A stretch of 64,000 nt of DNA from Hoeflea prorocentri (GCF_027944115.1 NZ_JAPJZI010000001.1:3038001-3102000); one strand, 5' to 3'; counted from the stretch's first letter, positions 25,436 through 48,008 are shown. The notes: generated by a model from the sequence alone, not told the origin. Numbers and translations: made by a program.

Positions 25436-26524
25436 CTATCCGCAGACGGCGAATTTGATGCACATCGGCGTGCCGATTTCGATGTTTTCCGGGCCTGGGG
25501 TCAGCCTCCCGGTTTGTTCATCACGGGAGAAAACGGCGATGTGATCGGAATCCTGATTGGCTGAGAACACCCAGCGTCCGCAGGGACTCAATGCCAGTGC
25601 GCGGGGTGTCTGACCACCGCAGGGCGTGCTCTCCACATGTGTAAGCCTGCCATCCTCGCCGATCGCCAGAACGGCAATCGTGTCCTGCCCGCGATTGCCG
25701 ACATAGAGGAACCGGTCGTCCGGCGAAATCTGGATGTCCGAACAATGATTGCCGTCAGCAGCAACGCCCCGGACGGCGGAGACGGTCTCCACCAGTTCCG
25801 GGGTTTGCCCTGCCACAATGGACATGCTGGCAACCGTGCTGTTCAATTCTCCGGTAACAAACAGGCGTGTCCCGTCCGCCGTCCATGCCAGATGGCGCGG
25901 CCCCATGCCCTGCGGCATGTCGGTGGCCGATTCCAGTTCCAGATCCCCGTCCTTGCTCAAGTGGTAGAGCAGGATCTTGTCGATCCCGAGATCGGCGACG
26001 GCAACCCGTCCGTCAGGCATCTGGCGGATGAAATGAGCGTGGGATCGTTCCTGCCTTTCGGGATGTGTGCCCGAACCCTCATGGGCAGCGCTGGAGGAAG
26101 CGGGATGGATGCCTTCAGCTTCGGAGATCGGAAAAACGGCGACGGATTTGTTCGGCCCTTCCGCACCAAGCGCATAGTTGGTCACCAGAAGGTGCCGTCC
26201 GTCATTGCTGAGGGAATTGTGCGACGTGATGCTGCCACGGCTCGGAACAATATCGAGATGCGTGATTTCCGCCCCGTCCGGATCAAATTCAAAGGCCGTG
26301 ACATGGCCTTGCGCGCGCCCGAAAAGCTCCGAGTTTGCAAAAATACGCCGTCCGTCCTGTGTCGTGGACAGATAGGTGGGATTGTCGATCCCCTCGTAGC
26401 GCGCGACCAGCGCCGCCTTGCCCGTGGCCGCGTCGAAGCGGAGAACGGAGATGCCCTCGCCATTCGCTGTCGCAAAGTAAGGCGTCGGAACGTTGCAGCT
26501 GCCGACAAACATATGAAGAGACAT
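25436..26524 (-). CDS. lactonase family (6-phosphogluconolactonase-like beta-propeller) protein
   Basis: A 362-residue seven-bladed beta-propeller of the YbhE/Lactonase_7 type, with repeated blades such as 'PTYLSTTQDGRRIFANSELF', 'SHNSLSNDGRHLLVTNYALG', 'HLAWTADGTRLFVTGEL' and 'ALSPCGRWVFSANQDSDHIA'. It would open a sugar lactone to the free acid. No signal peptide is seen. It is the last gene of the minus-strand operon that starts with the ribose-type binding protein at 31141, tying it to uptake of the same sugar. Confidence 0.85.
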   Translation of the reverse strand: MSLHMFVGSCNVPTPYFATANGEGISVLRFDAATGKAALVARYEGIDNPTYLSTTQDGRRIFANSELFGRAQGHVTAFEFDPDGAEITHLDIVPSRGSITSHNSLSNDGRHLLVTNYALGAEGPNKSVAVFPISEAEGIHPASSSAAHEGSGTHPERQERSHAHFIRQMPDGRVAVADLGIDKILLYHLSKDGDLELESATDMPQGMGPRHLAWTADGTRLFVTGELNSTVASMSIVAGQTPELVETVSAVRGVAADGNHCSDIQISPDDRFLYVGNRGQDTIAVLAIGEDGRLTHVESTPCGGQTPRALALSPCGRWVFSANQDSDHIAVFSRDEQTGRLTPGPENIEIGTPMCIKFAVCG

Positions 26525-26544
26525 TGCTTGACCTCCTTATGCGC

Positions 26545-27495
26545 TCAGATCGCGGTGCGCAGATGCGCCTGGCGACCATAGATTGCCACCACGGCGACGA
26601 TCAACACACCGAGCAGCGCCTGTACGACCGATTGGTCGAAGCCGAGCCCGATCAGCACCGTGTTGAGTTGGGTGAGCACCAGTGCTCCGGCAACAGTGCC
26701 GGCAATGCCGCCCTGCCCGCCCGACAGTGCCGTGCCTCCGATCACCGCAGCCGCGATGGTCTGAAAGAGATAGTGCCGGCCGACATCGGCAAAGGCCGCA
26801 CCTGAAAAGCCCAGAAGCAGAATGCCGGTGACCGCGGCCAGACCTGCGGAGAGCCCGAAACAGAAGACCCAGACCTTCAAAGCGCTGATGCGCACCAGCG
26901 GTGCGGCGGTTGGATTGGCGCCATAGGCAAAGATACGGCGGCCCAACAGGGTGCGCCGCTCCAACAGGAACAGCAGCACGGCAAGCAACAATGCCGCCGG
27001 AACCAGCATCGGCACCGGGATCGGGCCGATGGACTGCCCGATCGATACAAACTCGCTGATATAGGCCGGCGCGCTGCCGGTCGGGTAGCCCCTGGTCCAC
27101 AACAGGACGCCGCCGAGAAGCGCCGTGCCCGTTCCCAGTGTGATGATCAGGGGATGTACCTTCAACAGCGACGAGATGGCACCATTGAATGCGCCGACGG
27201 CGATGCTCAAGACGAGGACGACGAGTATCGCAACGGGAAACGGCATGCCTTGTGAGGACAGTTGCGCCACCGCCACATTGGCAAAACCGACGACAAAGGG
27301 AATGGACAGATCAATGCCGCCGATGAGCATGACGATGGTCTGACCGGCAGCGGCGATGATCAGGAAGGACGCGATGACCAGCATCGCCCTGATAGAAAAG
27401 ACCGATGTGTAACCTTCAACCGTGGCCGCGCCGATGGCGAAAATCACAGCAACCATGCCATAGGCCAGAACCGTCTTGTTGGTGGTCATGCGCAT
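26545..27495 (-). CDS. ribose-type (CUT2) ABC transporter permease
   Basis: A 316-residue RbsC-family permease with about ten membrane segments. The family motif 'AAGQTIVMLIGGIDLSIPFV' lies about residues 50–70, and 'GGTALSGGQGGIAGTVAGAL' near the C-terminus is the conserved cytoplasmic loop. I take the ATG at 27495, which starts directly after the previous permease gene's stop; 27489 is also possible. With the permease at 27497 it would form a heterodimeric channel. Confidence 0.92.
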   Translation of the reverse strand: MRMTTNKTVLAYGMVAVIFAIGAATVEGYTSVFSIRAMLVIASFLIIAAAGQTIVMLIGGIDLSIPFVVGFANVAVAQLSSQGMPFPVAILVVLVLSIAVGAFNGAISSLLKVHPLIITLGTGTALLGGVLLWTRGYPTGSAPAYISEFVSIGQSIGPIPVPMLVPAALLLAVLLFLLERRTLLGRRIFAYGANPTAAPLVRISALKVWVFCFGLSAGLAAVTGILLLGFSGAAFADVGRHYLFQTIAAAVIGGTALSGGQGGIAGTVAGALVLTQLNTVLIGLGFDQSVVQALLGVLIVAVVAIYGRQAHLRTAI

Positions 27496-27496
27496 A

Positions 27497-28447
27497 TCAG
27501 CCGGCCCGCCTTGCTCTGAGTTTGTCTGCAATCACCTGCGAGTTCAGCGCCACCGCGACCACCAGCACCAGACCGTAGGTGATCTGCAGGAAGAAGGGCG
27601 ACACATTCAGATAGGTGATCAGGTTCTGGATGAGGAAGATATCCAGCGCGCCGAGGGCAGCGCCCGCAATGCCCCCTTTGCCGCCCGCCAGGCTGACCCC
27701 GCCAAGCGCCGCCGCGGCGATGGCCAGAAGCGTATAATTGGGGCCGACCTGCGCATCGGCTGAACCAAGCAGCGCGGTCAGCGAGATGGCGGCAAGCCCG
27801 GCAAAAAGCCCGCCCAGCACATAGGCCAGAAAGCGCACGCGAGCGACATTCAGCCCGGCTGCATAGGCCGCGCGGTCCTCGCCGCCGATGGTCATGATGT
27901 GCCCATGCAGCGGCGTTGACTTGACCGCCAGCCACAGTCCGGCGCCAGCCAGAAGCGGCAATATGGACCATTCTTCCGACAGGGACACCAGCCAGGACGG
28001 AACCGGGCCGATCGGCGACGGCAGGTACCAAGTCGCAATGCCGGCAAGCACCAGATAGGTCCCAAGCGTTGCGACAATGGGTTGGATGCGAAGGACGATG
28101 GCGAGAAATCCGTTCACCGCACCGCCGATGGCACCGACCGCAATCGCAAAGGGCACGATGATGAGGGGCGAGCTGATGCCGAGATCAAGGATCAGCCCCT
28201 TGACGGTGAGCACGGAGATCATGCCCATGAGCGGACCGATGGAGATGTCGATGCCTTCGCGACCGGCCAGAATGACCGGTGTTGCGGCCGCCGCAGCCAG
28301 TATCAACGGCGCGACGAGGCCAAGTGTTGTACCGAGATTATCAGGCGCAAACCGGTTCGGCGTCACCACCAGGGTGATCAGCATCAGGACCACAAAGAGG
28401 CCAAGGGCGAATTTGGCCTCCAGAAGGCTGGCCAGCGTTGATTTCAT
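27497..28447 (-). CDS. ribose-type (CUT2) ABC transporter permease
   Basis: A 316-residue RbsC-family permease, paralogous to the one at 26545. It carries 'ATPVILAGREGIDISIGPLM' and 'ALGGVSLAGGKGGIAGAALG' and about ten hydrophobic segments. The ATG overlaps the stop of the second ATPase half (ATGA), so the two are translationally coupled. Two permease genes rather than one is common in this subfamily when the pore is a heterodimer. Confidence 0.92.
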   Translation of the reverse strand: MKSTLASLLEAKFALGLFVVLMLITLVVTPNRFAPDNLGTTLGLVAPLILAAAAATPVILAGREGIDISIGPLMGMISVLTVKGLILDLGISSPLIIVPFAIAVGAIGGAVNGFLAIVLRIQPIVATLGTYLVLAGIATWYLPSPIGPVPSWLVSLSEEWSILPLLAGAGLWLAVKSTPLHGHIMTIGGEDRAAYAAGLNVARVRFLAYVLGGLFAGLAAISLTALLGSADAQVGPNYTLLAIAAAALGGVSLAGGKGGIAGAALGALDIFLIQNLITYLNVSPFFLQITYGLVLVVAVALNSQVIADKLRARRAG

Positions 28448-29205
28448 GCCGTCGCACCCTCACCCTGACCGAACATGGATTGCATCAGGCCGTCGAGCGA
28501 CAGCTCAGCCCGAGGCAGTGTGGAAAAAATGCCCGCATCGCGAAAAACCAGCACCTCATCGCACAGCTCCACCAACTCATCGAGCTCGGTGGAGAAGAGA
28601 ACGATGGTCATACCGAGTTCGTTCACCGCACGGCGGAAGTAGTCGTAAAGGGCATGGCGGGTCTGGATATCGACGCCGCGTGTCGGATCGTTCAGCAAAA
28701 GGACGCGCGGGTTCGCGGCCATGATGCGCGCCAGCAGAACCTTCTGCTGATTGCCGCCCGAAAGATTGCGGATCGGCGTGGTGTAGGATGCAAACGACAT
28801 GGAGAGTTCCTTTCGGAAGGCCTCCAGCTTTTCACGCACATGTTTCGAGCGGATCCAGCCACGCGGCGCGAATTCCTCAGCGCTGCCGAGCAGGAAATTG
28901 TCCGCCACGCCCAGCATCGGGAATATGCCGTTCTTTTTGCGGTCCGATGGCAGATAGGCCAGCCCCGCACGCCCGGCCTCGGCATAGGTCCGCACCGGCT
29001 GCCCGCCTTTCTCCGTCATCGCCTCGATCGACCCTTCGGGCGAGGCGTGCAGGCCGGCAAGCGCCTGTATGAAAAGATCCTGGCCGTGACCGTCGAGCCC
29101 GGCGAGGCCAACAATCCGGCCTGCCTCGATCTCCACATCGATCGGCGGGCTGTCCGGCTCCAGCCGCAACCCCGAAACCGAGAGGACCGATGGGCGATCA
29201 GACAT
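28444..29205 (-). CDS. ABC transporter ATPase, second half (NBD2) of a split RbsA-type protein
   Basis: A 253-residue domain equivalent to the C-terminal half of RbsA. The signature 'LSGGNQQKVLLARIM' is intact, but the Walker A position reads 'GLDGHGQDL' with no GKS/T, and Walker B is 'RVLLLNDPTRGVD' with Asp for the catalytic Glu. This is the degenerate site of the RbsA pair. The ATG at 29205 overlaps the stop of the first half by eight bases, in a different frame. It must pair with the NBD1 protein to make one active ATP site. Confidence 0.88.
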   Translation of the reverse strand: MSDRPSVLSVSGLRLEPDSPPIDVEIEAGRIVGLAGLDGHGQDLFIQALAGLHASPEGSIEAMTEKGGQPVRTYAEAGRAGLAYLPSDRKKNGIFPMLGVADNFLLGSAEEFAPRGWIRSKHVREKLEAFRKELSMSFASYTTPIRNLSGGNQQKVLLARIMAANPRVLLLNDPTRGVDIQTRHALYDYFRRAVNELGMTIVLFSTELDELVELCDEVLVFRDAGIFSTLPRAELSLDGLMQSMFGQGEGATA

Positions 29206-29938
29206 CAACCAGCTCCTGTGTGAGATGCGCCAGCAGCGTTGCCGGGTTGATGTCGGCTCCTTCAAGCTCGGCGATCAGAACCCCGTTTTGCATAACGTGC
29301 ACCTGATCGGAGAGTTCCACGATCTCCGGCATCCGGTGCGAAACAAAGACAACGGCGCTGCCGGCCTCGCAAAAGGCCTTCAGCGTGTCGAACAGTTTTC
29401 CGCGGTCGGCGAGATCCAGCGCCGCCGTCGCCTCGTCGAGGATCAGCACGTCGGGGCGCCGCGCCAGCCCGCGCGCAATCACAACAATCTGCTGCTCATG
29501 AAGCGGCAACTCCCCCGCCGGGCGATCAAGCGCAATCGACCTGTCCGTCAATTGCGCCAGTGTTTGCCGCGCAAGCTCTGTCTTTTCGTTCACACTCATG
29601 CAGCGGTGAAAAACACCGTCCTGCCCGAGAAGGATGTTGTCGAGAACCGAGCGGTTCGGGACAACCAGAACCTCCTGCAACACAATCGCAACGCCATGCG
29701 CCAGCATCATGCGCGGGTCAGGCACGCCCTGAATCAATTGCCCGCCGACACGGATTTCACCGTTGTCGGCGGGCAGAACACCGCAGAGCACCTTGGCAAG
29801 CGTGCTCTTTCCCGATCCGTTTTCCCCGAGAATGGTATGGATCCGGCCGGATTGGATATCGACCGAAACATCGCGCAGTGCCTGCGTCTCGCCGAAACGC
29901 TTCGACACGCCACGACAGCCAAGGAGAATCTTGTCCAT
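29198..29938 (-). CDS. ABC transporter ATPase, first half (NBD1) of a split RbsA-type protein
   Basis: A 246-residue domain equivalent to the N-terminal half of RbsA. Walker A is intact ('GENGSGKST', residues 38–46), Walker B is 'DVLILDEATAALD' and the switch His lies in 'VVFVSHRM'. The signature loop is degenerate ('GELPLHEQQIVVIARGL' instead of LSGGQ). Together with NBD2, whose signature is good and Walker A bad, this gives one functional composite ATPase site. RbsA proteins are normally a single chain of about 500 residues, so the split is notable. Confidence 0.88.
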   Translation of the reverse strand: MDKILLGCRGVSKRFGETQALRDVSVDIQSGRIHTILGENGSGKSTLAKVLCGVLPADNGEIRVGGQLIQGVPDPRMMLAHGVAIVLQEVLVVPNRSVLDNILLGQDGVFHRCMSVNEKTELARQTLAQLTDRSIALDRPAGELPLHEQQIVVIARGLARRPDVLILDEATAALDLADRGKLFDTLKAFCEAGSAVVFVSHRMPEIVELSDQVHVMQNGVLIAELEGADINPATLLAHLTQELVDV

Positions 29939-29962
29939 ACCTCTTCCCGCAGCCAGATGTGC

Positions 29963-31141
29963 TTAGTCGCAAGCTCCCGGCACATCGGCATAGTTCCAGC
30001 CCGGAGCCAGCTCGGAACTGTTGAAGTATGCATTCATAACTTCAGAAGGCACAGGGTCTTCCGGATTGACCGGGAAGATTTCCGCTGAATCCGGCTTCAT
30101 GCAATCGCCGTACCAGGCATCGAAAGATGACATGGGCACCTCCGGAATCGGGATCATCAGCGTGCTGAGCTTCGGCTCCTGACCGGACAGGATACGCGAC
30201 GACACGCGGAACAGGTTCTGTCCCATCCATTGCGGCAGCACCGCATGGCCCGTGAACTTGAACGCATCCGGATTGGCTTTCCAATAGCCAAGCGCGTCGC
30301 CGGTCACCGATCCGGTGATGACGGGGACCGGCCGGCCGGCCTGAGCGAATGCCTCGGCGATGACGCGGGTTTCCGATCCCGTGGTCCACACGCCGTCGAT
30401 CGGAGCTGGATTGGTAGCCAGTGTCTGCAGGATCACAGATTTCGTGACGCTAGGCGTCCAGTCGCCATTGACCATGCGAACGACCTTGACGTCCGGATAT
30501 TCGGCAAAGGCAGCCTGGGCGCCCTGACGCTGCTGATCGACAATGGAGACACCGGCAATGCCTTCAACCATGACGACATTGCCCTTGCCGCCGATGGCTT
30601 CGGCCAGGCTGCGCGCCATGTCGTAGCCCCATTTGTAGTAGTTCGAGTCGACATTTACCGCATTTGGTGAACTGACCGTCGAGGCTGCTGTCACAAACGG
30701 AATTCCGGCCTCTGCGGCGGCTTCAACGGCGGCATTCAGGCCCGTGGGTGAACCCGGAACCGAGGTGATGATGTCGCATTCGGCGTCGATCAGGCTGCGG
30801 ATGTTGGATATCTCCAGACCCACGTCGCCATTCGAATCCGTCATCTGGAAGGCTGAGACCTTGCCTTCGTCGATCAATCCCTGGACCAGTCGCTTGAGCT
30901 CGTTGGTCAGGGCCACACGCCACGGATTGCCCTGATAGCTTTCCGAGTGGCACCAAAGCACCGCACCGTCATTTTTTACTTTCGGCACCTTCGGCAGCCC
31001 GACCGGGGTTGCCGAATTCTCATATTCCGCCTGCAGACCGCTCGGCAGGGAACCAATAACATCGTCGACGCCCTCAGCTCCTGCCGAGACCGTCATGGCA
31101 GCCAGGGTGAAACCCACTGCGACGTGCCTGAACAATTTCAT
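29963..31141 (-). CDS. ribose-type sugar ABC transporter substrate-binding protein
   Basis: A 392-residue periplasmic protein with a signal peptide ('HVAVGFTLAAMTVSAGAEG') and a periplasmic-binding-protein type 1 (Peripla_BP_4) core: 'VLWCHSESYQGNPWRVALTN', 'LIDAECDIITSVPGSPTGLN', 'GIPFVTAASTVSSPNAVNVD' and 'PIDGVWTTGSETRVIAEAF'. It is longer than RbsB (about 300) but fits the longer sugar-binding relatives. It is first in the operon binding protein–NBD1–NBD2–permease–permease–lactonase, behind a promoter with an inverted-repeat operator. Confidence 0.9.
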   Translation of the reverse strand: MKLFRHVAVGFTLAAMTVSAGAEGVDDVIGSLPSGLQAEYENSATPVGLPKVPKVKNDGAVLWCHSESYQGNPWRVALTNELKRLVQGLIDEGKVSAFQMTDSNGDVGLEISNIRSLIDAECDIITSVPGSPTGLNAAVEAAAEAGIPFVTAASTVSSPNAVNVDSNYYKWGYDMARSLAEAIGGKGNVVMVEGIAGVSIVDQQRQGAQAAFAEYPDVKVVRMVNGDWTPSVTKSVILQTLATNPAPIDGVWTTGSETRVIAEAFAQAGRPVPVITGSVTGDALGYWKANPDAFKFTGHAVLPQWMGQNLFRVSSRILSGQEPKLSTLMIPIPEVPMSSFDAWYGDCMKPDSAEIFPVNPEDPVPSEVMNAYFNSSELAPGWNYADVPGACD

Positions 31142-31245: not shown

Positions 31246-31288
31246 GATTTATCAGCATTAAATTCACTTGTAAAACTAATTTTTACAT
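31246..31288 (-). promoter_or_regulatory. promoter and operator of the ribose-type ABC operon
   Basis: On the minus strand TTTACA (31274–31269) and TAAATC (31251–31246) are 17 bases apart. An inverted repeat, TGTAAAA-CTAAT-TTTTACA (31269–31287; 8-base arms if 31268 and 31288 are counted), covers the -35 box. Its AAA-N5-TTT core and spacing match the repeats at 35522 and 46080. The rest of the gap up to 31467 shows nothing I can support. Confidence 0.6.
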
Positions 31289-31467
31289 GTGGTTGAATAC
31301 GCCTATGAACAAAGTGCGCAAACAGTTGAAAAGGCAGCCATTGGTTGCCGCGAAGAAAACATCTCGACGCGCCAGAGCGATCCTTCGGCAATGTCTTTTG
31401 ATACAGGCGGCGGGCAGAGCCGTTCCGCAGGCGGCTCAGGAGTGCTGGCCGGTCAATGCAAGCAGCT

Positions 31468-32598
31468 TCAGTCCCGCGACCAGCCTATGGGCGTCTCGCC
31501 AAGATAGGGGGCAGGCCCGTGGGCGGACGGCCGACTTCCGTCGACACGGATCGGCGACAGGAGAGCGCCGATCTTTTGCCCTCCCCTTTCGGTCGCGCCG
31601 ATCATTCCGAGTTTCTGCAAAATGCCGGAATCAATCAATTCCTGCCAGTTCATGACCGGTGCCGCCCACATATCCGCTTCCGCGAGTTTGGCGATCCAGT
31701 AATCGGTCTTGTCCTGGACGATCCTGTCGGCAATGCGGGCGGCGATTTCATCTCGGTGACCGAAGGGATCGAGCGTGTCTGACGGAAACTCGAGCCCGAG
31801 ATTGCCGAACAATTCCGTCAGGTCATTCATGGCAATGGCAACGTGGCCGTCGGCCGTTTCATAGACGCCATAGGGCGCTGCGAGGAAAGCGTGCGCGGCA
31901 TTGTTGCTGGGGCGGGACGGCAAACGCTGACCGTCATTGAGGAATGTCGACAGCAACTCGAACTGGAGGTCGACGATGGCTTCCATAAGGCTTGTTTCCA
32001 CATGGCCGCCCTCGCCCGTCGTCCCGCGTCTGACAAGCAGCGCGAGAACACCCTGCGCCAGGGCGGCGCCTGCCAGGATATCGGCAACCGGAAGGCCGAT
32101 CGCCACCGGGCCATGCTGTTGAGCACCCGTCAGCCACATGACGCCGCTGCGCGCCTGTGCCAGTAAATCCTGTCCCGGCAGGGCGTCCCATTCATTGCCA
32201 CCGCCATAGCCGGACACAGACCCGTAAACCACTTTCGGATTTCGCTCGCGAACGGCGTCGTAGCCAAAGCCGAGCCGCTCAATCACGCCCGGGCGGAAAT
32301 TCTGAATCACCACGTCCGCTTCATCCACAAGCGCCCAGATCTTTTCACGATCCACCTCCGATTTCAGATCGACAGCCAGGGAGCGCTTGCCCCGGTTGAT
32401 GGCATGAAAGACGGTGCTTTCCCCATCGATCTGGACATCGGACACGTAGAGATAGCGTGACAGGTCTCCCTTGCCCTTGCGTTCCACCTTGATGACATCC
32501 GCTCCGAGGTCGGCAAGGCGGAGACTGGCGTACGGGCCGGCAAGGAACTGGCTGAAATCGAGGACTTTCAGCCCCGACAAAGGCGCAACCGCAGTCAA
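31468..32598 (-). CDS. CaiB/BaiF-family (class III) CoA-transferase
   Basis: A 376-residue family III CoA-transferase. The N-terminus reads 'GLKVLDFSQFLAGPYASLRL' and 'GADVIKVERKGKGDLSR'; the conserved 'VVIQNFRPGVIERLG' and 'VYGSVSGYG' follow, and the probable catalytic Asp lies in 'GLPVADILAG'. The start is a TTG at 32598 with AAGGAG eight bases upstream, and it overlaps the stop of the previous gene (TTGA). It would move CoA between organic acids. It is paralogous to the CoA-transferase at 44924. Confidence 0.88.
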   Translation of the reverse strand: MTAVAPLSGLKVLDFSQFLAGPYASLRLADLGADVIKVERKGKGDLSRYLYVSDVQIDGESTVFHAINRGKRSLAVDLKSEVDREKIWALVDEADVVIQNFRPGVIERLGFGYDAVRERNPKVVYGSVSGYGGGNEWDALPGQDLLAQARSGVMWLTGAQQHGPVAIGLPVADILAGAALAQGVLALLVRRGTTGEGGHVETSLMEAIVDLQFELLSTFLNDGQRLPSRPSNNAAHAFLAAPYGVYETADGHVAIAMNDLTELFGNLGLEFPSDTLDPFGHRDEIAARIADRIVQDKTDYWIAKLAEADMWAAPVMNWQELIDSGILQKLGMIGATERGGQKIGALLSPIRVDGSRPSAHGPAPYLGETPIGWSRD

Positions 32599-34594: not shown

Positions 34595-34642
34595 ACCCAC
34601 ACCGTGTTTCTGGTCGCTATCCCGGGGTTGTACTTCAACCCG

Positions 34643-35543: not shown

Positions 35544-35600
35544 CGAAATACTGCCACACAGCGCAGCGCTGCAGAGACTGCAGCCAACCGGGAGGAAACT

Positions 35601-36908: not shown

Positions 36909-36921
36909 GTCTCCCAAGACT

Positions 36922-37908: not shown

Positions 37909-37910
37909 TC

Positions 37911-38777: not shown

Positions 38778-38780
38778 GAA

Positions 38781-39869
38781 ATGGCACAGGTTCGCCTGCG
38801 GGACGTCGTTAAGAGTTATGGCTCGGTTCAGGTCGTCCACGGCATCAATCTTGAGATCGAGGACAATGAGTTCGTGGTCCTGGTTGGGCCTTCCGGCTGC
38901 GGAAAATCCACCACGCTTCGGATGATCGCCGGGCTGGAAGCCATTTCCGACGGAAAGGTGTCCATCGGAGAAAGGGTCGTCAACGACCTGCCGCCGCGCA
39001 AGCGGAACATCTCCATGGTGTTTCAGAACTATGCGCTCTATCCGCACATGACCGTGCGGGAAAATCTTGGCTTTTCGCTGCAGATCGCCAAACGGCCACA
39101 GGCGGAGATCGACGAGGCGGTCAAGGAGGCTGCCAACATCCTGAACCTGAGCGAATTCATGGACCGCAAGCCCGGCACGCTTTCCGGCGGCCAAAGGCAA
39201 CGGGTCGCAATGGGCCGGGCGATTGTTCGCCATCCCGATGTGTTTTTGTTCGACGAGCCACTTTCCAACCTTGATGCCAAGCTGCGCACGCAAATGCGGA
39301 CCGAGATCAAGAAACTGCATCAGAAAGTCAAATCCACCATCGTCTATGTCACGCATGACCAGGTCGAGGCGATGACGCTGGCGGACCGGATCGTGATCAT
39401 GCGCGACGGCCATATCGAGCAGGTCGGCACGCCGCTCGACGTTTTTGAAAATCCGGCCAACACCTTCGTGGCCACCTTCATCGGTTCGCCGCCGATGAAC
39501 CTGCTCTCCGCTCAGGTCAAGGAAGGGCAGCTTGCGCTCGACGGCGGTCCGGTTTCGAAACTGCCGCAGCAGTTTGCCGGCAATGTACAGGAAGGACAGC
39601 AGGTGATCCTCGGCTTTCGCGCCGACAATTTCATGCTTGCCGGTCATGCCATGCAGATGGAAGGCGAATATGCCGAATTCGACATGACGGTGAACCTGTC
39701 CGAGCCGCTCGGCACCGAGACCCTTCTCTTCGGTTCGCTCGCCGGCAAGGAGGTTCAGGCAAAGATGCTGAACCCGCGCCCCGTCGAAGACGGTGAACGG
39801 CTGACCTTTCAGCTCGACCTGACCCGCTGTCACCTGTTTGACGCCGAAACCCAAAAGAGCCTGAGATAG
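38781..39869 (+). CDS. sugar ABC transporter ATPase (MalK/UgpC-like)
   Basis: A 362-residue ATPase. Walker A is 'GPSGCGKST', the signature '[17 protein letters not shown]', Walker B '[12 protein letters not shown]', and the switch His is in '[15 protein letters not shown]'. The C-terminal third is the OB-fold regulatory domain of MalK-type proteins ('[14 protein letters not shown]', 'ILGFRADNF'). It energises the two upstream permeases. The enolase-superfamily gene follows after four bases. Confidence 0.96.
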
Positions 39870-41005: not shown

Positions 41006-41335
41006 ATGCAGAGAATGGGAATGGCAATCGGCCTTAACGCCGAAAAGGTCCAGGAATACAAGACGCTGCACGCCGATGTCTGGCCGGGTGTCCTGAAAAT
41101 GATCACCGAATGCAACATCCGCAACTATTCGATTTTCCTCAAGGAGCCGGAAAACATTCTCTTCGGTTATTGGGAATATCACGGAACGGATTTTGCCGCC
41201 GACGCGGCCAAGATGGCCGCTGATCCGGAAACCCAGCGCTGGTGGGATGTGTGCATGCCCTGCCAGAAACCCTTCGAGCATCGCGGACCGGACGAGTGGT
41301 GGGCGATGATGGAGGAGGTCTTTCACCTCGATTAG
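41006..41335 (+). CDS. L-rhamnose mutarotase-family protein
   Basis: A 109-residue alpha/beta-barrel dimer protein of the RhaM family, which interconverts pyranose anomers. It shows 'RMGMAIGLNAEKVQEYKTLH' with the active-site His, 'VWPGVLKMITECNIRNYSIF', 'ILFGYWEYHG' and the C-terminal 'WWAMMEEVFHLD'. Length is normal. AAAGGTGGAG precedes the ATG. Its presence argues that the transported substrate is a free deoxy-hexose such as L-rhamnose or L-fucose, or a pyranose of similar configuration. Confidence 0.9.
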   Translation: MQRMGMAIGLNAEKVQEYKTLHADVWPGVLKMITECNIRNYSIFLKEPENILFGYWEYHGTDFAADAAKMAADPETQRWWDVCMPCQKPFEHRGPDEWWAMMEEVFHLD

Positions 41336-41337: not shown

Positions 41338-42393
41338 ATGACGCAGAATTTTCGACAGCACTGGCCAAAAGCAACGGATCCGAAACCGATCGTCATTTTC
41401 GGGGCCGGTTCCATTGTGACCGACGCACATCTGCCGGCCTATGCGAGGGCCGGCTATCGGGTGGCCGGTGTCTTCGATCCGGATCTGGACAAGACGCGCG
41501 ACCTGGCAATGGCCCATGGTATCGCTGCCTATGGCTCACCGCAGGAAGCGGCATCGGCAGGCGATGTCGTCTTTGACCTTGCCACGCCTCCGGCCGCGAT
41601 TGCCAATATCCTGGAGATTCTGCCCGAGGGTTCCGCGGTGCTCATTCAAAAGCCGATGGGCAGTGATCTTGAGGAGGCTACAGAAATCCTTCAAATCTGC
41701 CGCCGCAGAAAGCTGAAGGCGGCGGTGAATTTCCAGCTCCGGTTTGCCCCCATCACACTGGCCTTGCAGGATGCGATAGAACGCGGGCTTCTCGGCGACA
41801 TTGTCGATTTCGATGCCTGGCTTGCACTCGACACGCCCTGGGGCCTGTGGAAGTTTCTGGAGCCGCTGCCGCGCGTTGAGATCAGTCTTCATTCAATCCA
41901 CTATCTGGATCTGATCCGAGGATTGCTCGGCGATCCGAAAGGCATCCACGCCAAGACCTTGGGGCATCCATCCTCAAAGATTGCCCAGACACGCACCGCC
42001 GCCATTCTGGATTATGGCGATGAGTTGCGCTGCGCCTTGTCGATCAATCACAATCACGCGTTCGGCCGCAAATATCAGGCCTGTGAATTCCGCATTTGCG
42101 GCACCAGGGGCGCTGCCTACCTGCAGCTTGGCGTTAATCTCGATTACCCCAAAGGCGAGGCGGACATATTGGAGATCAACACAGGAGACGGCTGGGAAAC
42201 CGTCACGCTGAGCGGAACCTGGTTCCCGGATGCGTTCGCCAGCCGGATGAGCCAGCTCCAGCGCTTTGCAAGCGGCGAGGACGACACGCTGATCGGAAGC
42301 GTTGAAGACGCCTGGTCGACCATGGCCCTTGTCGAAGCCGCCTATGAAAGCAGCGCCAGCGAAGCCCACCCAATCGCAAGGAGACCGCAGTGA
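41338..42393 (+). CDS. Gfo/Idh/MocA-family oxidoreductase
   Basis: A 351-residue NAD(P)-dependent dehydrogenase. The Rossmann start is '[20 protein letters not shown]', and the conserved Lys lies in 'IQKPMGSD' (Gln replaces the usual Glu of EKP). The alpha/beta substrate domain contains 'VNFQLRF' and '[13 protein letters not shown]' with the usual His. It starts two bases after the mutarotase stop; the previous frame also extends upstream, but the ATG at 41338 fits the family start. It probably oxidises the sugar at C1 or reduces a keto intermediate. Confidence 0.88.
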
Positions 42394-42839
42394 ACATTCA
42401 GGAAATCTATTTCGAGGACTATGAGATCGGCCATTTCCGGGAGACCTTCGGGCGCACGATCACCGAAACGGATTTTGTCGTTCACGCCGGACATACAGGC
42501 GACTTCTTCCCGCACCACATGGACAAGGAGTGGTGTAAGACACAGGAATTCGGACAGCGTGTCGCACATGGCACGATGGTGTTTGCGATCGGCATCGGCC
42601 TCAGCGCAAGCGAGATCAACCCGGTCGCGTTCTCCTATGGTTACGACCGCCTGAGATTTGTGAAACCGGTTCATATCGGCGACACGATCCGCACGCGGCT
42701 GACCATCGACCGCAAACATCCCGACCCGAAACGCGAAGGGATGGGTCAGGTCTTCGAGAAAGTCGAAGTGCTCAATCAGAACGATGAAACCGTGCTTGCT
42801 ACCGAACACATCTATCTTGTCGAAATGCGGAAAGCCTGA
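42390..42839 (+). CDS. MaoC-family hydratase/dehydratase, catalytic residues present
   Basis: A 149-residue hotdog-fold protein starting with a GTG that overlaps the previous stop (GTGA). The R-hydratase motif D-x-N-P-x-H appears as 'GDFFPHHMD', with Asp38 and His43 in the catalytic positions. The '[20 protein letters not shown]' segment is shared almost word for word with the second MaoC protein at 44340. Enzymes of this kind add or remove water on CoA thioesters, which fits the two CoA-transferases in the locus. Confidence 0.88.
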
Positions 42840-43141
42840 TGAGCGCGTTTTTGAAACTTCACCCGAAGGATAACGTCCGTGTCGCGCTGCGTCCTGTCGA
42901 ACGGGGCGACCGGTTTGAAACCGATGAGGGACCAGTTACATGTTTGTGTGCGGTGGGCATGGCCCACAAGGTCGCCGAGCGCCTGATCGAAAAGGGAAGT
43001 CTGGTGATCAAGTACGGTATGCCCATAGGCACGGCGATCACCGATATTGCGGCCGGCGAACATGTGCACGTCCACAATATCGAGAGCCGATACACACCGA
43101 CCTATCATCATGAAGACCAGGCGGAATCAAGCAATGAATAA
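42839..43141 (+). CDS. UxaA-family dehydratase, small (SAF-domain) subunit
   Basis: A 100-residue SAF-domain protein equivalent to the N-terminal part of altronate/galactarate dehydratases: 'LHPKDNVRVALRPVERGDRF', 'LVIKYGMPIGTAITDIAAGE' and 'HVHVHNIESRY'. The ATG overlaps the MaoC stop (TGATG) and the stop overlaps the large-subunit start by eight bases. In UxaA both parts are one chain; here they are two coupled genes, as also happens in other relatives of the family. Confidence 0.88.
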   Translation: MSAFLKLHPKDNVRVALRPVERGDRFETDEGPVTCLCAVGMAHKVAERLIEKGSLVIKYGMPIGTAITDIAAGEHVHVHNIESRYTPTYHHEDQAESSNE

Positions 43142-44336
43142 GACGTGGCAAGGCTATCTTCGAAAGGACGGGCGAAAGGGTATCCGCAATGCGGTCGCGG
43201 TTGCCTATCTCGTCGAATGCGCACATTTCGTTGCCGACAAGATCGTTCGACCCTTTGACGATGAGGAGGTCCACCTTATCGGCTTTCCGGGCTGCTTTCC
43301 GAACGCCTATGCCCAGACAATGATGGAGAAGCTCTGTACACACCCGAATGTCGGCGCGGTGCTTCTTGTTTCCCTTGGCTGCGAGAGCTTCAACCGCCGG
43401 CGGCTTTCAGAGGTCATTGAAGCCTCCGGCCGGCCGGTCGAGACGCTGGTCATTCAAAGAAACGGCGGCACCGCCGCTACGATCAAGAGCGGTCGGGACT
43501 TCGTCCGCGCCGCGCTTGAGGAAATCGCCGACGTGCCAAAGGTGGAGATGGGTGTCTCCGACCTTGTTGTCGGGACCATCTGCGGCGGCTCGGACGGAAC
43601 CAGCGGCATATCTGGAAATCCGGCGGCAGGACGCGCCTTTGACCGCCTCGTTGCCGAAGGCGCAGCCTGCATATTCGAGGAAACGGGCGAGTTGATCGGC
43701 TGTGAGCATCTGATGGCGGAGCGCGCGATCACTCCGGAACTTGGCGAACTCATCAAGCAATCAGTCGACAAGGCGGCGGCCTATTATGCGGCCCTTGGAT
43801 ATGGGAGCTTTGCTGCGGGGAATGCCACTGGCGGATTGTCGACAATCGAGGAAAAGTCGCTGGGCGCCTATGTGAAATCGGGTGAGGCACCGATCAGCGG
43901 CATTTTAAAGCCGGGAGACACGCCACCGAAGGGCGGGCTTTATCTGATGGATGTCGTGCCCGACGGACCCGTCCGTTTCGGCTTTCCCAATATTGCCGAC
44001 AATGCGGAAATCACCGAGATGATTGCCTCTGGCGCGCATCTGACCCTGTTTGTGACAGGCCGCGGGTCGGTTGTCGGATCGGCGATCGCCCCGGTTATCA
44101 AAATCTGCGCAAATCCGGAAACATACCGCTCACTCGAGGCGGATATGGACGTAAACGCCGGTGCGATTGTCGACGGGCACATGAGCATCGACGGTGTCGC
44201 CGACGAGATCTTTGAACTGATCCAGGACGTTGCGGGCGGCGAGACGACAAAGTCCGAGGCCATCGGCCATCGCGAATTCATCCTGACCTACAAGAGTTTT
44301 GAACCGATCGGGCCGGCATGCCTGCCCGTCACGTAA
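43134..44336 (+). CDS. UxaA-family dehydratase, large (catalytic) subunit
   Basis: A 400-residue protein equivalent to the C-terminal domain of altronate dehydratase, starting 'GYLRKDGRKGIRNAVAV'. The family signature is 'VGTICGGSDGTSGISGNPAA', and Cys residues in 'GFPGCFPNA', 'SLGCESFN' and 'TICGGSD' could bind iron. I place the start at the ATG at 43134. It should dehydrate an aldonic or uronic-derived acid to a 2-keto-3-deoxy acid. With the mandelate-racemase-type enzyme the locus has two unrelated dehydratases. Confidence 0.9.
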   Translation: MNKTWQGYLRKDGRKGIRNAVAVAYLVECAHFVADKIVRPFDDEEVHLIGFPGCFPNAYAQTMMEKLCTHPNVGAVLLVSLGCESFNRRRLSEVIEASGRPVETLVIQRNGGTAATIKSGRDFVRAALEEIADVPKVEMGVSDLVVGTICGGSDGTSGISGNPAAGRAFDRLVAEGAACIFEETGELIGCEHLMAERAITPELGELIKQSVDKAAAYYAALGYGSFAAGNATGGLSTIEEKSLGAYVKSGEAPISGILKPGDTPPKGGLYLMDVVPDGPVRFGFPNIADNAEITEMIASGAHLTLFVTGRGSVVGSAIAPVIKICANPETYRSLEADMDVNAGAIVDGHMSIDGVADEIFELIQDVAGGETTKSEAIGHREFILTYKSFEPIGPACLPVT

Positions 44337-44339
44337 GAT

Positions 44340-44894
44340 ATGCATGAGCCGGAAGCCAACCGGCCCGACACCATGGAGGCAAAGTTGTCCGAAGCAAGCT
44401 ACTACGCAGATCAAGATGAGATCCCTCTCTACAATGTGGAGACATGGCTCTACGAGGATTTCAAGGTCGGTGAAAAAGTGCGGTCCATCCGGCGCACGAT
44501 CTCGGAGGGCGAGTGCATGCTCTTCAACAGCCTTGTGATGGACAACCACCCTTATGTCGCCGATGACATTTTCACCTCAAACGAAGGATTGTTCGGCAAG
44601 CGGCTGGTCGCCGGAGCGATGGTTTTCAGCTATGGCCTCGGCCTGATGGCAAACAACAATGTCAACACGTTTTCATACGGTTACGACAAACTGCGCTTCA
44701 TCAAACCGGTGTTCATCGGTGACACGATTTTCACAGTCCGTACGCATCTGGAAAAACGGCCGAAATACAAGGAACTGGGCCTCGTCAAGGTTTCCTATGA
44801 GGTGTTCAAGAATGAGGGCGAACTGGCGCTCTATGCCGAACATCTGCAAACGGTCAAATACCGTCATCCGGAGAATTTCGAGGCCGAGGGCTGA
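44340..44894 (+). CDS. MaoC-family protein lacking the catalytic histidine
   Basis: A 184-residue hotdog protein, paralogous to the one at 42390 (shared '[20 protein letters not shown]'). Where the active one has D-x-x-P-x-H, this one reads '[10 protein letters not shown]': Asp68 is kept but Val73 stands at the His position. It has a longer N-terminus (about 35 extra residues) and a C-terminal extension. It may be a structural partner in a heterodimer with the first MaoC protein, or have another chemistry. It is the last gene of the plus-strand operon. Confidence 0.85.
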
Positions 44895-44923: not shown

Positions 44924-46054
44924 TTACGTCAGAAATTCACCCGTATCGGCGCCCAGCGCCGGGCCGCCGCGGCCGGATTTGAAAACCTCGCCATCGATAC
45001 GGATCGGGCAGCGGGTCGTTGACGCGGTCGCGCCGTCAGGTGTCGTAATGTCCTGCACCATATCAAGTGCGGCAAAACCTTCCGTTTCGAGCAAGGCCGG
45101 CCAATCAAGAACCGCGGCGCACCAGATATCGGCCGGCTCCAGCCGGTCCAGCCAATAGCGCACGTCTTGCGTCAAGAGGTGATCGCGCAGGATAGCCTTG
45201 ATATCATCGCGCAGGCGAAGTGCATCATCCGGGTCTGCAAACGGCTCCAGTTCCCTGCAGTCGATCAGTTCGGCAAGCTTTGCGATCGGCGTCATGGCAA
45301 TCGCCAGATAACCGTCCTTGCATTTGTAAATTCCGTAAGGCGCACCAACGGAGATATTCGCATTGCTGACCTTGCCGCGCGGTGCCATTGCACCGTCACC
45401 GTTGAGAAACGCCGTAAACAGTTCGAACTGCATGTCGATTGACGAAGACATCAGGTCAACCTCGACAAGACCACCCTCGCCCGTCCGCTCGCGCCTGAGC
45501 AATGCGGCCATGATGCCCTGTACCAGATGGTTGCCGCATGTGATGTCGAGGGCGGCAAAGCCTGCGGGCACGGGCGGCATATCGCCGTCTCCCGACAGCC
45601 AGGGCATGCCCGTCAGCGACTGAACCAGCAGATCCTGCCCGGGTTTTTCGACCCATGGCCCCTCGGTGCCATAGCCGGTCACCGCACCATAGACCAGCCG
45701 CGGGTTGACGGCACGGACCGTCTCCCAGTCCAGACCGATCCTTTCCATGACACCCGGCCGGAAGTTGTGGATCAGGACATCCACGGACTTCAGCAGTTCC
45801 TTGATCCGTTCAAGATCCGCCGGGTTTTTCAGGTCCGCCGCAACGCTCTTCTTGTTCCGGTTGATCGTATGAAACAGGAGACTGTCTTCACCGGCCTTCT
45901 GGTCTGCAATGACCAGCGATCGGCACAGATCGCCCACTCCCGGCCGTTCTACCTTTATCACTTCCGCACCGAGATCGGCGAGCCTGAGCGCCGCCATCGG
46001 GCCGGCCAGGAACTGGGCGAAATCCAGAACTTTAAGTCCTTCCAGCGGCTTCAT
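44924..46054 (-). CDS. CaiB/BaiF-family (class III) CoA-transferase
   Basis: A 376-residue family III CoA-transferase, paralogous along its length to the one at 31468 ('GLKVLDFAQFLAGPMAALRL', 'GAEVIKVERPGVGDLCR', 'VLIHNFRPGVMERIG', 'VYGAVTGYG'). The probable catalytic Asp is in 'AALDITCG'. I use the ATG at 46054, with GGAG ten bases upstream. It is convergent with the long operon ending at 44894 and divergent from the dehydrogenase pair at 46208; the gap between carries an operator-like repeat. Confidence 0.9.
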   Translation of the reverse strand: MKPLEGLKVLDFAQFLAGPMAALRLADLGAEVIKVERPGVGDLCRSLVIADQKAGEDSLLFHTINRNKKSVAADLKNPADLERIKELLKSVDVLIHNFRPGVMERIGLDWETVRAVNPRLVYGAVTGYGTEGPWVEKPGQDLLVQSLTGMPWLSGDGDMPPVPAGFAALDITCGNHLVQGIMAALLRRERTGEGGLVEVDLMSSSIDMQFELFTAFLNGDGAMAPRGKVSNANISVGAPYGIYKCKDGYLAIAMTPIAKLAELIDCRELEPFADPDDALRLRDDIKAILRDHLLTQDVRYWLDRLEPADIWCAAVLDWPALLETEGFAALDMVQDITTPDGATASTTRCPIRIDGEVFKSGRGGPALGADTGEFLT

Positions 46055-46079
46055 TTGAACTTGACTCCGATTGAACCGT

Positions 46080-46113
46080 ATATAAAACATATTTTCATAT
46101 ACTGATTAGTCAA
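46080..46113 (-). promoter_or_regulatory. promoter/operator between CoA-transferase and alcohol dehydrogenase genes
   Basis: On the minus strand TTGACT (46113–46108) and TATGTT (46091–46086) with a 16-base spacer precede the CoA-transferase start. The inverted repeat ATATAAAA-N5-TTTCATAT (46080–46100) has one mismatch between its 8-base arms and overlaps the -10 region. It is the third member of the set at 31268 and 35522. Confidence 0.6.
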
Positions 46114-46207: not shown

Positions 46208-47236
46208 ATGACGACCAAGCACAAGGCCGGCTACTACAAGGGCAGCAAGAGCTTTACGCTTGACGCGGCCGAGACCGTTTCACCAGGAGCTGGAGAGGTC
46301 GCCATAAAGGTTGCCTATTGCGGGATATGCGGGACCGACATGCATGTCTTTCACGGCAATATGGATGCGCGTGTCGGTCATAACAGGGTACTCGGCCACG
46401 AAATGTCCGGTACCGTGGCCGCCCTTGGCGATGGGGTGGATGGATTTTCCGTCGGCCAGAAGGTGACTGTCAGGCCGCTGAGCCACTGCGGAAAATGCCC
46501 CGCCTGCCTCGCCGGCCATGAACATATCTGTCACAACCTGAAATTTCTCGGACTGGACACCGACGGCGCGATGCAGGAAGTCTGGACCGTGCCGGCCTTT
46601 ACCGTGCATACCCTGCCCGACGACATGCCCATGGACCATGCGGCCCTTGTCGAACCCGTCGCGGTCGCCTGCCACGATGTGCGCCTGTCCGAATTGACCA
46701 AGGGCGAGGATGTTGTCGTGATTGGCGGCGGGCCGATCGGCATGCTTGTGGCGCTCGTAGCGCGCGATGCAGGCGGCAAGGTCATTGTTTCAGAAGTCAA
46801 CCCGAACCGGCTGGCGATCGCCGGGGCGCTTGGGTTTGCCACGATCAATCCGGTCGAACAGGATCTGAGCGCAGAAGTCCTTTCAGCCACGAACGGCAAA
46901 GGCGCGGATGTCGTGTTCGAGGTCTCCGGAACGCAAAAAGGTGTCGATGCGATGACGGCCGTCGCCGCCACACGGGCACGCATCGTCATGGTCGCCATCC
47001 ATGCGACCAAGCCGCAGATCGATCTCTTCCAGTTCTTCTGGCGCGAATTGCAGCTGATCGGGGCGCGGGTCTACGAGCCCGTGGATTATGAAAAGGCCAT
47101 CGCACTTGTGGCATCGGGCGCAATGAGTGCCGATACCATCATCACCGATATCAGCCCGCTTTCCGAAATCCAGGGCGCTTTTGAATCACTCGATACAAAT
47201 CCGACGGCGATGAAAAGCCTGATCAAGGTGAGTTAA
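46208..47236 (+). CDS. zinc-dependent medium-chain alcohol/polyol dehydrogenase
   Basis: A 342-residue MDR enzyme. The catalytic zinc site uses 'CGICGTDMHVFHG' and 'LGHEMSG', and the structural zinc site is the four Cys in 'CGKCPACLAGHEHIC'. The NAD loop 'VVIGGGPIGMLVALVARDAG' is Rossmann-type. The ATG at 46208 is preceded by AGGAGG at 46196. Relatives oxidise sugar alcohols or the hydroxyl of 2-keto-gulonate-type acids. It pairs with the SDR gene four bases downstream. Confidence 0.9.
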   Translation: MTTKHKAGYYKGSKSFTLDAAETVSPGAGEVAIKVAYCGICGTDMHVFHGNMDARVGHNRVLGHEMSGTVAALGDGVDGFSVGQKVTVRPLSHCGKCPACLAGHEHICHNLKFLGLDTDGAMQEVWTVPAFTVHTLPDDMPMDHAALVEPVAVACHDVRLSELTKGEDVVVIGGGPIGMLVALVARDAGGKVIVSEVNPNRLAIAGALGFATINPVEQDLSAEVLSATNGKGADVVFEVSGTQKGVDAMTAVAATRARIVMVAIHATKPQIDLFQFFWRELQLIGARVYEPVDYEKAIALVASGAMSADTIITDISPLSEIQGAFESLDTNPTAMKSLIKVS

Positions 47237-47240
47237 GCAC

Positions 47241-48008
47241 ATGAACGTCTTGCAGTCTTTTGATCTCAGCGGGAAAACAGCACTCGTAACCGGCGCAAAG
47301 CGCGGCATCGGACGGGCCATGGCCGAAGCCCTTGCCGGTGCGGGTGCCGATATAGTCGGCGTCAGCGCGACATTGTCCCCGGGAAGTGAAGTCGAACAGT
47401 CCGTGAGTGCGATGGGGCGGTCATTCACCGGTTATAGTTGTGATTTCAGCAACCGCGGCGCACTACTGGATTTCACAGGCCAACTCAGAGCCGACGGGAT
47501 TGCGCCCGATATCCTGATCAACAATGCCGGGACCATCAAACGAAAGCCGGCGGCGGATCATCCGGATGAATGGTGGGACGAGGTGATCGAGGTCAATTTG
47601 TCATCGCAATTCGTCCTCAGCCGAGAGATCGGCAAGGACATGGTCAAACGCGGACACGGCAAAATCATCTTCACCGCATCCCTGCTGACTTTCCAGGGCG
47701 GAATTACCGTACCCGGCTACGCCGCCTCCAAGGGCGGCATTGGCCAGTTGACCAAAGCCCTCGCCAATGAATGGGCTGGCTCCGGGGTCAACGTCAACGC
47801 CATCGCTCCCGGCTATATCGCCACCGACAACACAGAAGCGCTTCGGCAGGACCAGAACCGCCATCAGGCGATCCTGGAACGTATACCCGCAGGCCGCTGG
47901 GGCCAGCCGGAGGACTTTGCCGGACCGGTCGTATTCCTCGCATCGGCGGCATCGGATTATGTCAACGGTGAAATCCTCGTCGTCGACGGCGGATGGATGG
48001 GCCGTTAG
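47241..48008 (+). CDS. SDR-family oxidoreductase (KduD/gluconate 5-dehydrogenase-like)
   Basis: A 255-residue classical short-chain dehydrogenase. The cofactor motif is 'VTGAKRGIGRAMAEAL', 'NNAGTI' follows, and the catalytic Tyr-x3-Lys is 'YAASKGG' with Ser upstream in 'ASLLTF'. The start 'SFDLSGKTALVTGAKRGIGR' and the end 'YVNGEILVVDGGWMGR' resemble 2-deoxy-D-gluconate 3-dehydrogenase and 2-keto-3-deoxy-L-fuconate dehydrogenase types. It is cotranscribed with the Zn-dehydrogenase. The exact substrate is not clear from sequence. Confidence 0.9.
   Translation: MNVLQSFDLSGKTALVTGAKRGIGRAMAEALAGAGADIVGVSATLSPGSEVEQSVSAMGRSFTGYSCDFSNRGALLDFTGQLRADGIAPDILINNAGTIKRKPAADHPDEWWDEVIEVNLSSQFVLSREIGKDMVKRGHGKIIFTASLLTFQGGITVPGYAASKGGIGQLTKALANEWAGSGVNVNAIAPGYIATDNTEALRQDQNRHQAILERIPAGRWGQPEDFAGPVVFLASAASDYVNGEILVVDGGWMGR

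Follow-up and report, generated by a model that had tools for sequence, protein, structure and literature searches.

The window analysed here is a stretch of 64,000 nucleotides from Hoeflea prorocentri, and its segment 25436-48008 holds a sugar-acid locus in which two genes for family III coenzyme A (CoA) transferases (caiB1 and caiB2), two for MaoC-type hydratases (maoC1 and maoC2) and one for a leaderless homologue of solute-binding proteins (SBPs; sbp1b) lie among sugar transporters and sugar enzymes. The 24 open reading frames (ORFs) taken as genes were run against Pfam, and 20 of them against NCBIfam, giving the following arrangement.

25436-26524, minus strand: 7-bladed lactonase (PF10282)
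26545-31141, minus strand: RbsABC-type sugar ATP-binding cassette (ABC) transporter with split ATPase (Pfam, NCBIfam)
31468-32598, minus strand: caiB1, family III CoA-transferase (PF02515, CoA_transf_3, E 2.8e-95), with the family-conserved Asp of PGQDLL
32595-33740, minus strand: sbp1b, SBP fold, no signal peptide (SBP_bac_8, E 1.4e-09)
33776-34600, minus strand: iclR, KdgR-like IclR regulator (PF01614/PF09339; KdgR NF011671 92.5 bits, cutoff 275)
34643-35491, minus strand: amh2, lactonase-like Amidohydro_2 protein (PF04909, E 1e-48; L-fucono-1,5-lactonase NF052480 101.5 bits, cutoff 400)
35601-39869, plus strand: MalK-type sugar ABC transporter (SBP, two permeases, ATPase)
39874-40986, plus strand: MR, mandelate-racemase-type sugar-acid dehydratase of the enolase superfamily (PF13378/PF02746)
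41006-41335, plus strand: rhaM, RhaM-type mutarotase (PF05336, E 2.1e-33)
41338-42393, plus strand: gfo, Gfo/Idh/MocA dehydrogenase (PF01408, PF22725), start shifted from 41242 to the ATG at 41338
42390-42839, plus strand: maoC1, hydratase-2 type with Asp/His motif (PF01575, E 5.8e-21; PDB 4ffu, E 3e-69)
42839-44336, plus strand: two-part UxaA-type dehydratase (PF08666; PF04295/PF20629)
44340-44894, plus strand: maoC2, altered active site D-x-H-P-Y-V (PF01575, E 4.2e-12)
44924-46054, minus strand: caiB2, family III CoA-transferase (PF02515, E 5.6e-99), start probably at the ATG at 46054 rather than at 46090
46208-48008, plus strand: tdh-like Zn dehydrogenase and KduD-like short-chain dehydrogenase/reductase (SDR) (PF08240/PF00107; TIGR01832 323 bits, cutoff 339)

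Every gene class that an initial annotation had named at this locus was recovered by these matches. From the gene of the sugar-binding protein (35601) to the end of maoC2 (44894) the plus-strand genes follow one another closely, at intervals of -8 to +103 bp; both MaoC genes lie, as had been claimed, in one operon-like run with the MalK-type transporter. The dehydratase of this run is composed of a SAF subunit (42839-43141) and a catalytic subunit (about 43134-44336), and MR reaches 311 bits against NF047820 (L-talarate/galactarate dehydratase; cutoff 500). On the minus strand the start of caiB1 overlaps the stop of sbp1b by 4 bp; sbp1b, located between iclR and caiB1, had been overlooked and belongs to the CoA module. 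The description of the locus as a complete set of CoA chemistry went too far, as no thiolase, CoA ligase, acyl-CoA dehydrogenase or CoA lyase was found in the 24 ORFs, and ligase and thiolase were likewise absent from 10 ORFs scanned at 52-64 kb, the ORFs at 1-22 kb being outside the scan. The RbsA-type ATPase consists of two half-length ORFs (28444-29938); it is also in two ORFs in three relatives (L033, L034 and L038), so that the split is probably not a sequencing error.

The two CaiB proteins (45% identical) combine the CoA_transf_3 domain with an aspartate in PGQDLL that is kept in at least 95% of 104 aligned rows, as befits family III CoA-transferases. This Asp is presumably the catalytic residue, as in formyl-CoA transferase. 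CaiB falls in no named NCBIfam subfamily among the matches listed, and the equivalog matches of both CaiB and MaoC1 lie far under their cutoffs (for example, 211.6 of 700 bits). In a tree of the 104 CaiB rows the paired Bacteroidota copies form two parallel clades, so the pair would be old in that phylum. MaoC1 has the Asp/His pair of the hydratase-2 motif, D38 and H43, each kept in 95% or more of its 57 rows. MaoC2, 37% identical to MaoC1, retains the aspartate (D68), carries valine at the histidine position and has an extra conserved histidine, His70, two residues past the Asp; in its 82 rows 74 positions are at least 95% conserved. Because of the valine, MaoC1 and MaoC2 are not simple duplicates. 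A reading of the MaoC pair as plain copies was abandoned, the site of MaoC2 being different and strictly conserved.

The AlphaFold model of Sbp1b, with a predicted local distance difference test (pLDDT) value of 94.7, was matched by Foldseek to sugar-binding SBPs with a template-modelling (TM) score of about 0.8, which assigns it to the SBP fold, at an identity of 18% or less among the 50 structure matches listed. In 52 rows 32 positions are invariant. Among 68 homologues of Sbp1b a single one has an export leader (hydropathy of at least 1.9), whereas 12 of 14 transporter SBPs, taken as a control, have one. The lack of a leader and the presence of the gene in RhaT operons led to rejection of Sbp1b as an ordinary transporter subunit; it is probably a cytosolic enzyme or binding subunit. 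A second leaderless SBP-fold protein is encoded beside sbp1b in Bacteroidota and Acidobacteriota loci, for instance at 11658-12890 in L065 and 11054-12295 in L119.

Co-occurrence of the four genes was studied by searching 397 genomes of the host's order with maoC2, maoC1, caiB2 and sbp1b, and homologues considered close (E at most 1e-60, 1e-40, 1e-90 and 1e-60, respectively) were present in 29, 35, 35 and 41 genomes. All 29 genomes with a close maoC2, the window's included, have maoC1, caiB and sbp1b within 20 kb; within 5 kb of maoC2, caiB is found in 29, sbp1b in 25 and maoC1 in 8 of them. The 35 caiB genomes contain sbp1b without exception and maoC1 in 34 cases. Fisher tests gave p values of 2e-38 to 7e-47 for genomes that share ancestry and are not independent. 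Partial sets are carried by 12 genomes. Five (G010, G121, G219, G250 and G282) have maoC1, CaiB and sbp1b and no close maoC2, and in Bacteroidota maoC1 and maoC2 are often apart, for which reasons an obligatory MaoC1/MaoC2 heterodimer was not adopted.

The module extends far beyond the order. One maoC2 scan of genome contigs yielded 91 loci, the best 80 of which were studied; as many of them are cut by contig ends, the gene counts are lower bounds. They belong to Pseudomonadota (29), Bacteroidota (19), Acidobacteriota (12), Bacillota (9), Verrucomicrobiota (6), Chloroflexota (3) and Deinococcota (1), with one lacking a phylum name. Near maoC2 there are, at least, any CaiB in 66 loci, sbp1b in 62, maoC1 in 47, gfo in 45, iclR in 34, amh2 in 32, MR in 26, rhaM in 21, kduD in 15, tdh in 7 and the UxaA pair in 6. 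MaoC2, CaiB and sbp1b occur together in 59 of the 80 loci, from seven named phyla, and all four genes, with MaoC1, in 39 loci from six; the stretch examined lacks both MR and UxaA in 22 of the 39. A whole-genome search of 20 of these genomes, ten of which had shown only maoC2 locally, recovered sbp1b and caiB (E at most 1e-60) in 17 genomes each, the two together in 16, and maoC1 (E below 1e-55) likewise in 17. The genomes of L074 and L106 contained no sbp1b, caiB or close maoC1, L047 no sbp1b, L107 no caiB and L048 no close maoC1. Among the Bacteroidota, a Chitinophagaceae locus (L092) reads rhaM-caiB-caiB-(745-aa ORF, no family given)-maoC2-fucosidase-maoC1-sbp1b-amh2-RhaT-gfo, and three others (L119, L122 and L125) read RhaT-sbp1b-caiB-caiB-SBP-gfo-tdh-kduD-maoC1, their tdh and kduD products being 54-55% and 69-71% identical to those of the window; in L119 and L125 the gene of an AraC regulator separates RhaT from sbp1b. 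On S. meliloti pSymB (L132) maoC2 is separated from caiB and adjoins a TRAP transporter and a LacI regulator.

The predicted operators of these loci have an element in common, RTATATRAAA-N5-TTTYATATAY. With 0-2 mismatches none is expected in shuffled sequences, and with up to 5 mismatches 29 sites were counted in 14 loci against a shuffle mean of 1.4 and maximum of 3 (20 shuffles), counts that are partly circular since the pattern was drawn with the sites in view. A position weight matrix (PWM) built from 12 transporter promoters, the tested locus being always left out, is free of that circularity. Its top three separate places in the 64-kb window (35514, 31263 and 46072) lie upstream of the operons of both transporters and in the caiB2/tdh intergenic region, where the following operators are predicted.

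35520-35544, no strand: predicted operator in the divergent promoter amh2-iclR-sbp1b-caiB1 / transporter-MR-rhaM-gfo-maoC-uxa; best PWM place, 2 palindrome mismatches
31266-31290, no strand: weak predicted operator before the RbsABC-type operon; second PWM place, 21.4 bits, 5 mismatches
46078-46102, no strand: predicted operator between caiB2 and tdh-kduD; third PWM place, 0 mismatches

The divergent amh2/sbp1 promoter is kept in relatives. The PWM was also applied to 33 loci, comprising the window, L114, L131, L133 and all 29 loci from Pseudomonadota. One of the three top positions of the whole locus falls within 260 bp upstream of a maoC2, caiB or sbp1b gene in 24 of the 33, and the very best does in 13, including all eight Phyllobacterium-type loci (L099, L101, L103, L104, L108 and L110-L112), which had no part in the training. 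Of the 24 matches, 22 exceed the best score of the reversed sequence, the exceptions being L131 (16.9 versus 19.2 bits) and the window itself, whose site at 46078-46102 scores 12.3 bits, below its control of 13.4. An alternative operator, TTGACT-N9-AGTCAA, was dropped, as 17 matches with up to 3 mismatches compare with 15.2 by chance. An A/T-rich, TGAAA-N5-TTTCA-like palindrome precedes the regulated operons, as in KdgR/IclR systems, and the locus would constitute an IclR/KdgR-type regulon, binding of IclR to the sites being predicted. The KdgR motif published in PMC8222616 is RWWGAAACGNCGTTTCAKKA, and the window operator resembles the A/T-rich KdgR-type palindromes given there.

Co-occurrence, synteny and operator tests led chance neighbourhood to be rejected, and the initial annotation was right in this respect: the genes are co-localised in 29 of 29 genomes and recur across phyla, and the operator predicted for the transporters is also predicted for them. 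It had also named absence or scattering of the CaiB and MaoC genes in related loci as an argument to the contrary. On this point the outcome is mixed: within the order MaoC1 is within 20 kb in 33 of the 35 CaiB genomes, and the genes are scattered in two Phyllobacterium genomes, in S. meliloti and often in Bacteroidota.

The neighbours also hint at the sugar involved. Homologues of two L-fucosidase representatives, which match PF01120, are located near maoC2 in 13 of the 80 loci, those in L046 and L089 being weak (26-27% identity). A Persicobacter plasmid run comprises RhaT, SBPb, CaiB, CaiB, SBP, Gfo, alcohol dehydrogenase, SDR and MaoC and continues with IclR, a beta-propeller lactonase, an alpha-L-fucosidase and a sulfatase; within the 31 kb shown no MR, UxaA or fumarylacetoacetate (FAA) hydrolase is annotated. 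On a Roseibium plasmid an annotated L-fuconate dehydratase, an SDR and an FAA hydrolase (FAH) stand behind MaoC1. The maoC1 gene of R. algicola, of S. meliloti and of Phyllobacterium shares its run with genes for the MalK-type transporter, for MR, mutarotase, Gfo, SDR and FAH and for L-fuconate dehydratase. Given the fucosidase neighbours and the L-fuconate-type runs, the best guess is L-fucose or a sugar related to it in stereochemistry (L-galactose, D-arabinose), and the substrate is most likely a 6-deoxyhexose, either L-fucose itself or one closely related to it. In S. meliloti the MalK-type transporter belonging to the cluster reportedly serves L-fucose.

At 5.5 kb past the end of the locus a pair of genes, missed by the initial annotation, corresponds to the terminal 4-dehydrogenase (SDR) and FAA-family hydrolase of the non-phosphorylating L-fucose/L-rhamnose route.

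53538-54284, plus strand: SDR, probable 2-keto-3-deoxy-L-fuconate 4-dehydrogenase, 61% identical to its R. algicola counterpart
54332-55177, plus strand: FAA-hydrolase-family 2,4-diketo-acid hydrolase, 71% identical to its R. algicola counterpart

The hydrolase scores 440 bits against NF053535 (2,4-didehydro-3-deoxy-L-rhamnonate hydrolase), below the cutoff of 500, and the matching pair in Roseibium algicola accompanies an annotated L-fuconate dehydratase. Since this pair is known to cleave the chain, CoA is not required for that step, and the CoA set need not carry the carbon flow. The closest match to L-fuconate dehydratase in the window's genome is MR, partial and at 37%, and MR or the UxaA pair may stand in for it; proteins of the D-altronate dehydratase family, named in a reference title, reportedly take part in L-fucose pathways. 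An LldD-type L-lactate dehydrogenase is encoded at 61689-62870. Route 3 of non-phosphorylating L-fucose catabolism, as outlined in PMC11199699, ends in pyruvate and L-lactate, and with these genes it can be drawn for the window with no CoA step.

We propose, at a probability of about 0.45, that the locus encodes a conserved CoA-thioester branch of 6-deoxyhexose-acid catabolism combined with sugar genes. Starting from the computed gene content, co-occurrence, synteny, common operator, CaiB and MaoC1 motif residues and leaderless sbp1b, we infer the substrate, CoA acceptor, direction, order of steps and role of sbp1b as follows. After uptake by the transporter and mutarotation by RhaM, the sugar would be oxidized at C1 by Gfo or by KduD/Tdh, its lactone would be opened by the Amidohydro_2 protein or the 7-bladed lactonase, and the acid would be dehydrated by MR or the UxaA pair. 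CaiB would transfer CoA from a donor acyl-CoA to the sugar acid, the presumed acceptor, or to its keto-deoxy product, and MaoC1, through its Asp/His site, would hydrate or dehydrate the thioester at its 2,3 bond. The altered site of MaoC2 might make it a partner subunit or a second, different lyase, and Sbp1b might be an intracellular protein that binds the sugar acid or the acyl-CoA, either as an enzyme or as a subunit for delivery. In this genome the CoA branch would run beside the 4-dehydrogenase/hydrolase route. A wider proposal, tentative and as a whole less likely than not, is that of a widespread module by which L-fuconate or another deoxyhexonic acid is processed as a CoA thioester formed by CaiB, dehydration by MaoC replaces the metal-dependent dehydratase, and a periplasmic SBP fold has moved to the cytosol as an enzyme or binding subunit. 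No description of such a module was found in the open-licence literature, as judged by titles and beginnings of abstracts among the matches listed; the module is real and conserved and, in the open literature searched, undescribed, with a role of CoA that is plausible.

Several results weigh against a CoA branch. CoA ligase, thiolase and CoA lyase are absent from the 24 ORFs, and MaoC2 lacks the usual His. The end of a known non-CoA route lies within the window at 53538-55177, and the genome of L092 carries L-fuconate dehydratase and FAH elsewhere, so that the CoA branch may be dispensable for L-fucose. No site precedes 53538 in either the PWM or the palindrome scan. An orthologue of L-fuconate dehydratase is absent from the window's genome (G000, E 1e-120), and the 43 genomes that have the enzyme in a sample of 317 include just 10 of the 35 CaiB genomes; hence it was rejected as a constant companion of the module. 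In 9 of the 33 loci no operator was detected ahead of the CoA genes: in L036, L037 and L040 these genes are inside transporter or IclR runs and have no separate promoter, and L078, L079, L081, L085, L086 and L093 belong to Devosia or to a Rhizobiales metagenome-assembled genome. Within the order, G323 lacks caiB (and maoC2), G293 lacks maoC1 (and maoC2), and G013, G040, G181, G259 and G334 have sbp1b without close CaiB, MaoC1 or MaoC2. The MaoC2-CaiB-sbp1b trio is on a different contig from the sugar cluster with MaoC1 in two Phyllobacterium genomes; in S. meliloti MaoC2 is far off and CaiB-sbp1b is 9.6 kb from the sugar cluster, and in Bacteroidota MaoC2 is often separate from the rest. Moreover, the high-affinity L-fucose system that PMC3454389 reports for S. 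meliloti is another transporter, with SMc02774.

Other explanations have to be compared with the proposed CoA branch. The CoA module could degrade a different compound that co-occurs with L-fucose (an acyl or other substituent of the glycan, or another acid entering through the same importers), the sugar using the known non-phosphorylating route only. This division of labour, which we consider unlikely, would explain why SDR and FAH occur in the window and why R. algicola, S. meliloti, Phyllobacterium and Ponticoccus have them next to MaoC1, as well as the separate small operon of the MaoC2-CaiB-sbp1b trio in several Rhizobiales. It is at odds with Persicobacter and Chitinophagaceae, whose CoA genes run with a dehydrogenase and a lactonase or mutarotase and without MR, UxaA or FAH, and with some Paenibacillus loci (L054, L060 and L062), where they run with gfo and amh2; no recurring substituent-removing gene was seen, most ORFs without a family being outside the scan. 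It seems quite improbable that CaiB, MaoC and Sbp1b act after carbon-carbon cleavage on a C3 product (lactate, a lactaldehyde-derived acid or a C3/C4 hydroxy acid): the CaiB and MaoC families commonly handle short acids, as is generally known, and homologues of one RraA-like aldolase stand beside the module in 6 of the 80 loci, but 74 loci have none in the stretch examined, the LldD-type enzyme of the window covers lactate, and general chemistry indicates that lactoyl-CoA cannot be dehydrated by a MaoC-type mechanism.

The loss of the standard His from MaoC2, its location near L-fucosidase without a local CaiB in eight Bacteroidota loci, and the general tendency of Gfo/Idh proteins to make keto-sugars could also mean that MaoC1, MaoC2 and Sbp1b do not work on CoA compounds in this setting. 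The hot-dog proteins would then hydrate or dehydrate a keto-sugar made by Gfo, and CaiB would have an unrelated role. We regard this as improbable, since CaiB and sbp1b are found at other places in the genomes of seven of the eight, that of L074 alone having neither, and the CaiB Asp is so widely kept. That the locus is an ordinary non-phosphorylating L-fucose or L-rhamnose cluster with accessory CoA genes of no significance for the pathway is very hard to sustain: a candidate gene can be assigned to each classical step, yet co-localisation in every maoC2 genome of the order, recurrence across phyla and a common operator are not expected of irrelevant neighbours.

If the proposed CoA branch is true, breakdown of deoxysugars in soil and marine bacteria would have a branch missed by present pathway annotation, through which fucose-rich algal and plant glycans would be partly consumed, and the conserved leaderless SBP would be a clear example of how cytosolic metabolism can take over a protein of transport. 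Tractable laboratory strains carry the module, whose gene set is small and precise. Other genes of the window were noted in passing. A PfkB gene at 55190-56164, similar to 2-dehydro-3-deoxygluconokinase (292 bits, cutoff 400), hints at uronate or 2-keto-3-deoxygluconate (KDG) metabolism beside the KduD-like gene. A single protein with DinB_2, FGE-sulfatase and Methyltransf_33 domains (48359-50620) is what we take to be an ergothioneine-type EgtB-EgtD fusion. A glycosyltransferase ORF (58299-59894) joins an Anp1 domain (PF03452, E 7e-42), in a family best known from fungi, to a sugar-binding DXD domain.

The proposed route shares features with several known systems. The statement of the initial annotation that sugar-acid routes proceed without CoA is not borne out in deoxyribonate catabolism in Klebsiella michiganensis, for which PMC6365646 proposes deoxyribonyl-CoA and reports a CoA-transferase in the cluster. 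The likeness is that a sugar acid is handled as a CoA thioester next to a CoA-transferase gene; the difference is that the Klebsiella route, as PMC6365646 presents it, uses a CoA-synthetase, a hydroxyacyl-CoA dehydrogenase and a thiolase, whereas the search of the present locus revealed neither a ligase nor a thiolase. With route 3 of L-fucose catabolism (FucM, FucA, FucB, FucC, FucF and FucG; PMC11199699, PMC6336799) the window shares candidates for the mutarotase, lactonase, enolase- or UxaA-type dehydratase, SDR and FAA hydrolase, and a dehydratase acting on D-arabinonate and, weakly, on L-fuconate has been described. However, route 3 as presented in these two papers has no CaiB, MaoC or leaderless SBP, and the main text of PMC6336799 contains neither "MaoC" nor "CoA". 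CaiB and MaoC occur together in the mesaconate, itaconate and beta-methylmalyl-CoA pathways (names from NCBIfam and PDB matches), but here no CitE-type lyase is found in the 24 ORFs and sugar genes take its place. Finally, Sbp1b has the fold of SmoF and MalE, the SBPs of ABC importers (TM about 0.8); unlike them, it has no signal peptide and is kept beside CaiB even in the Bacteroidota operons with a RhaT symporter.

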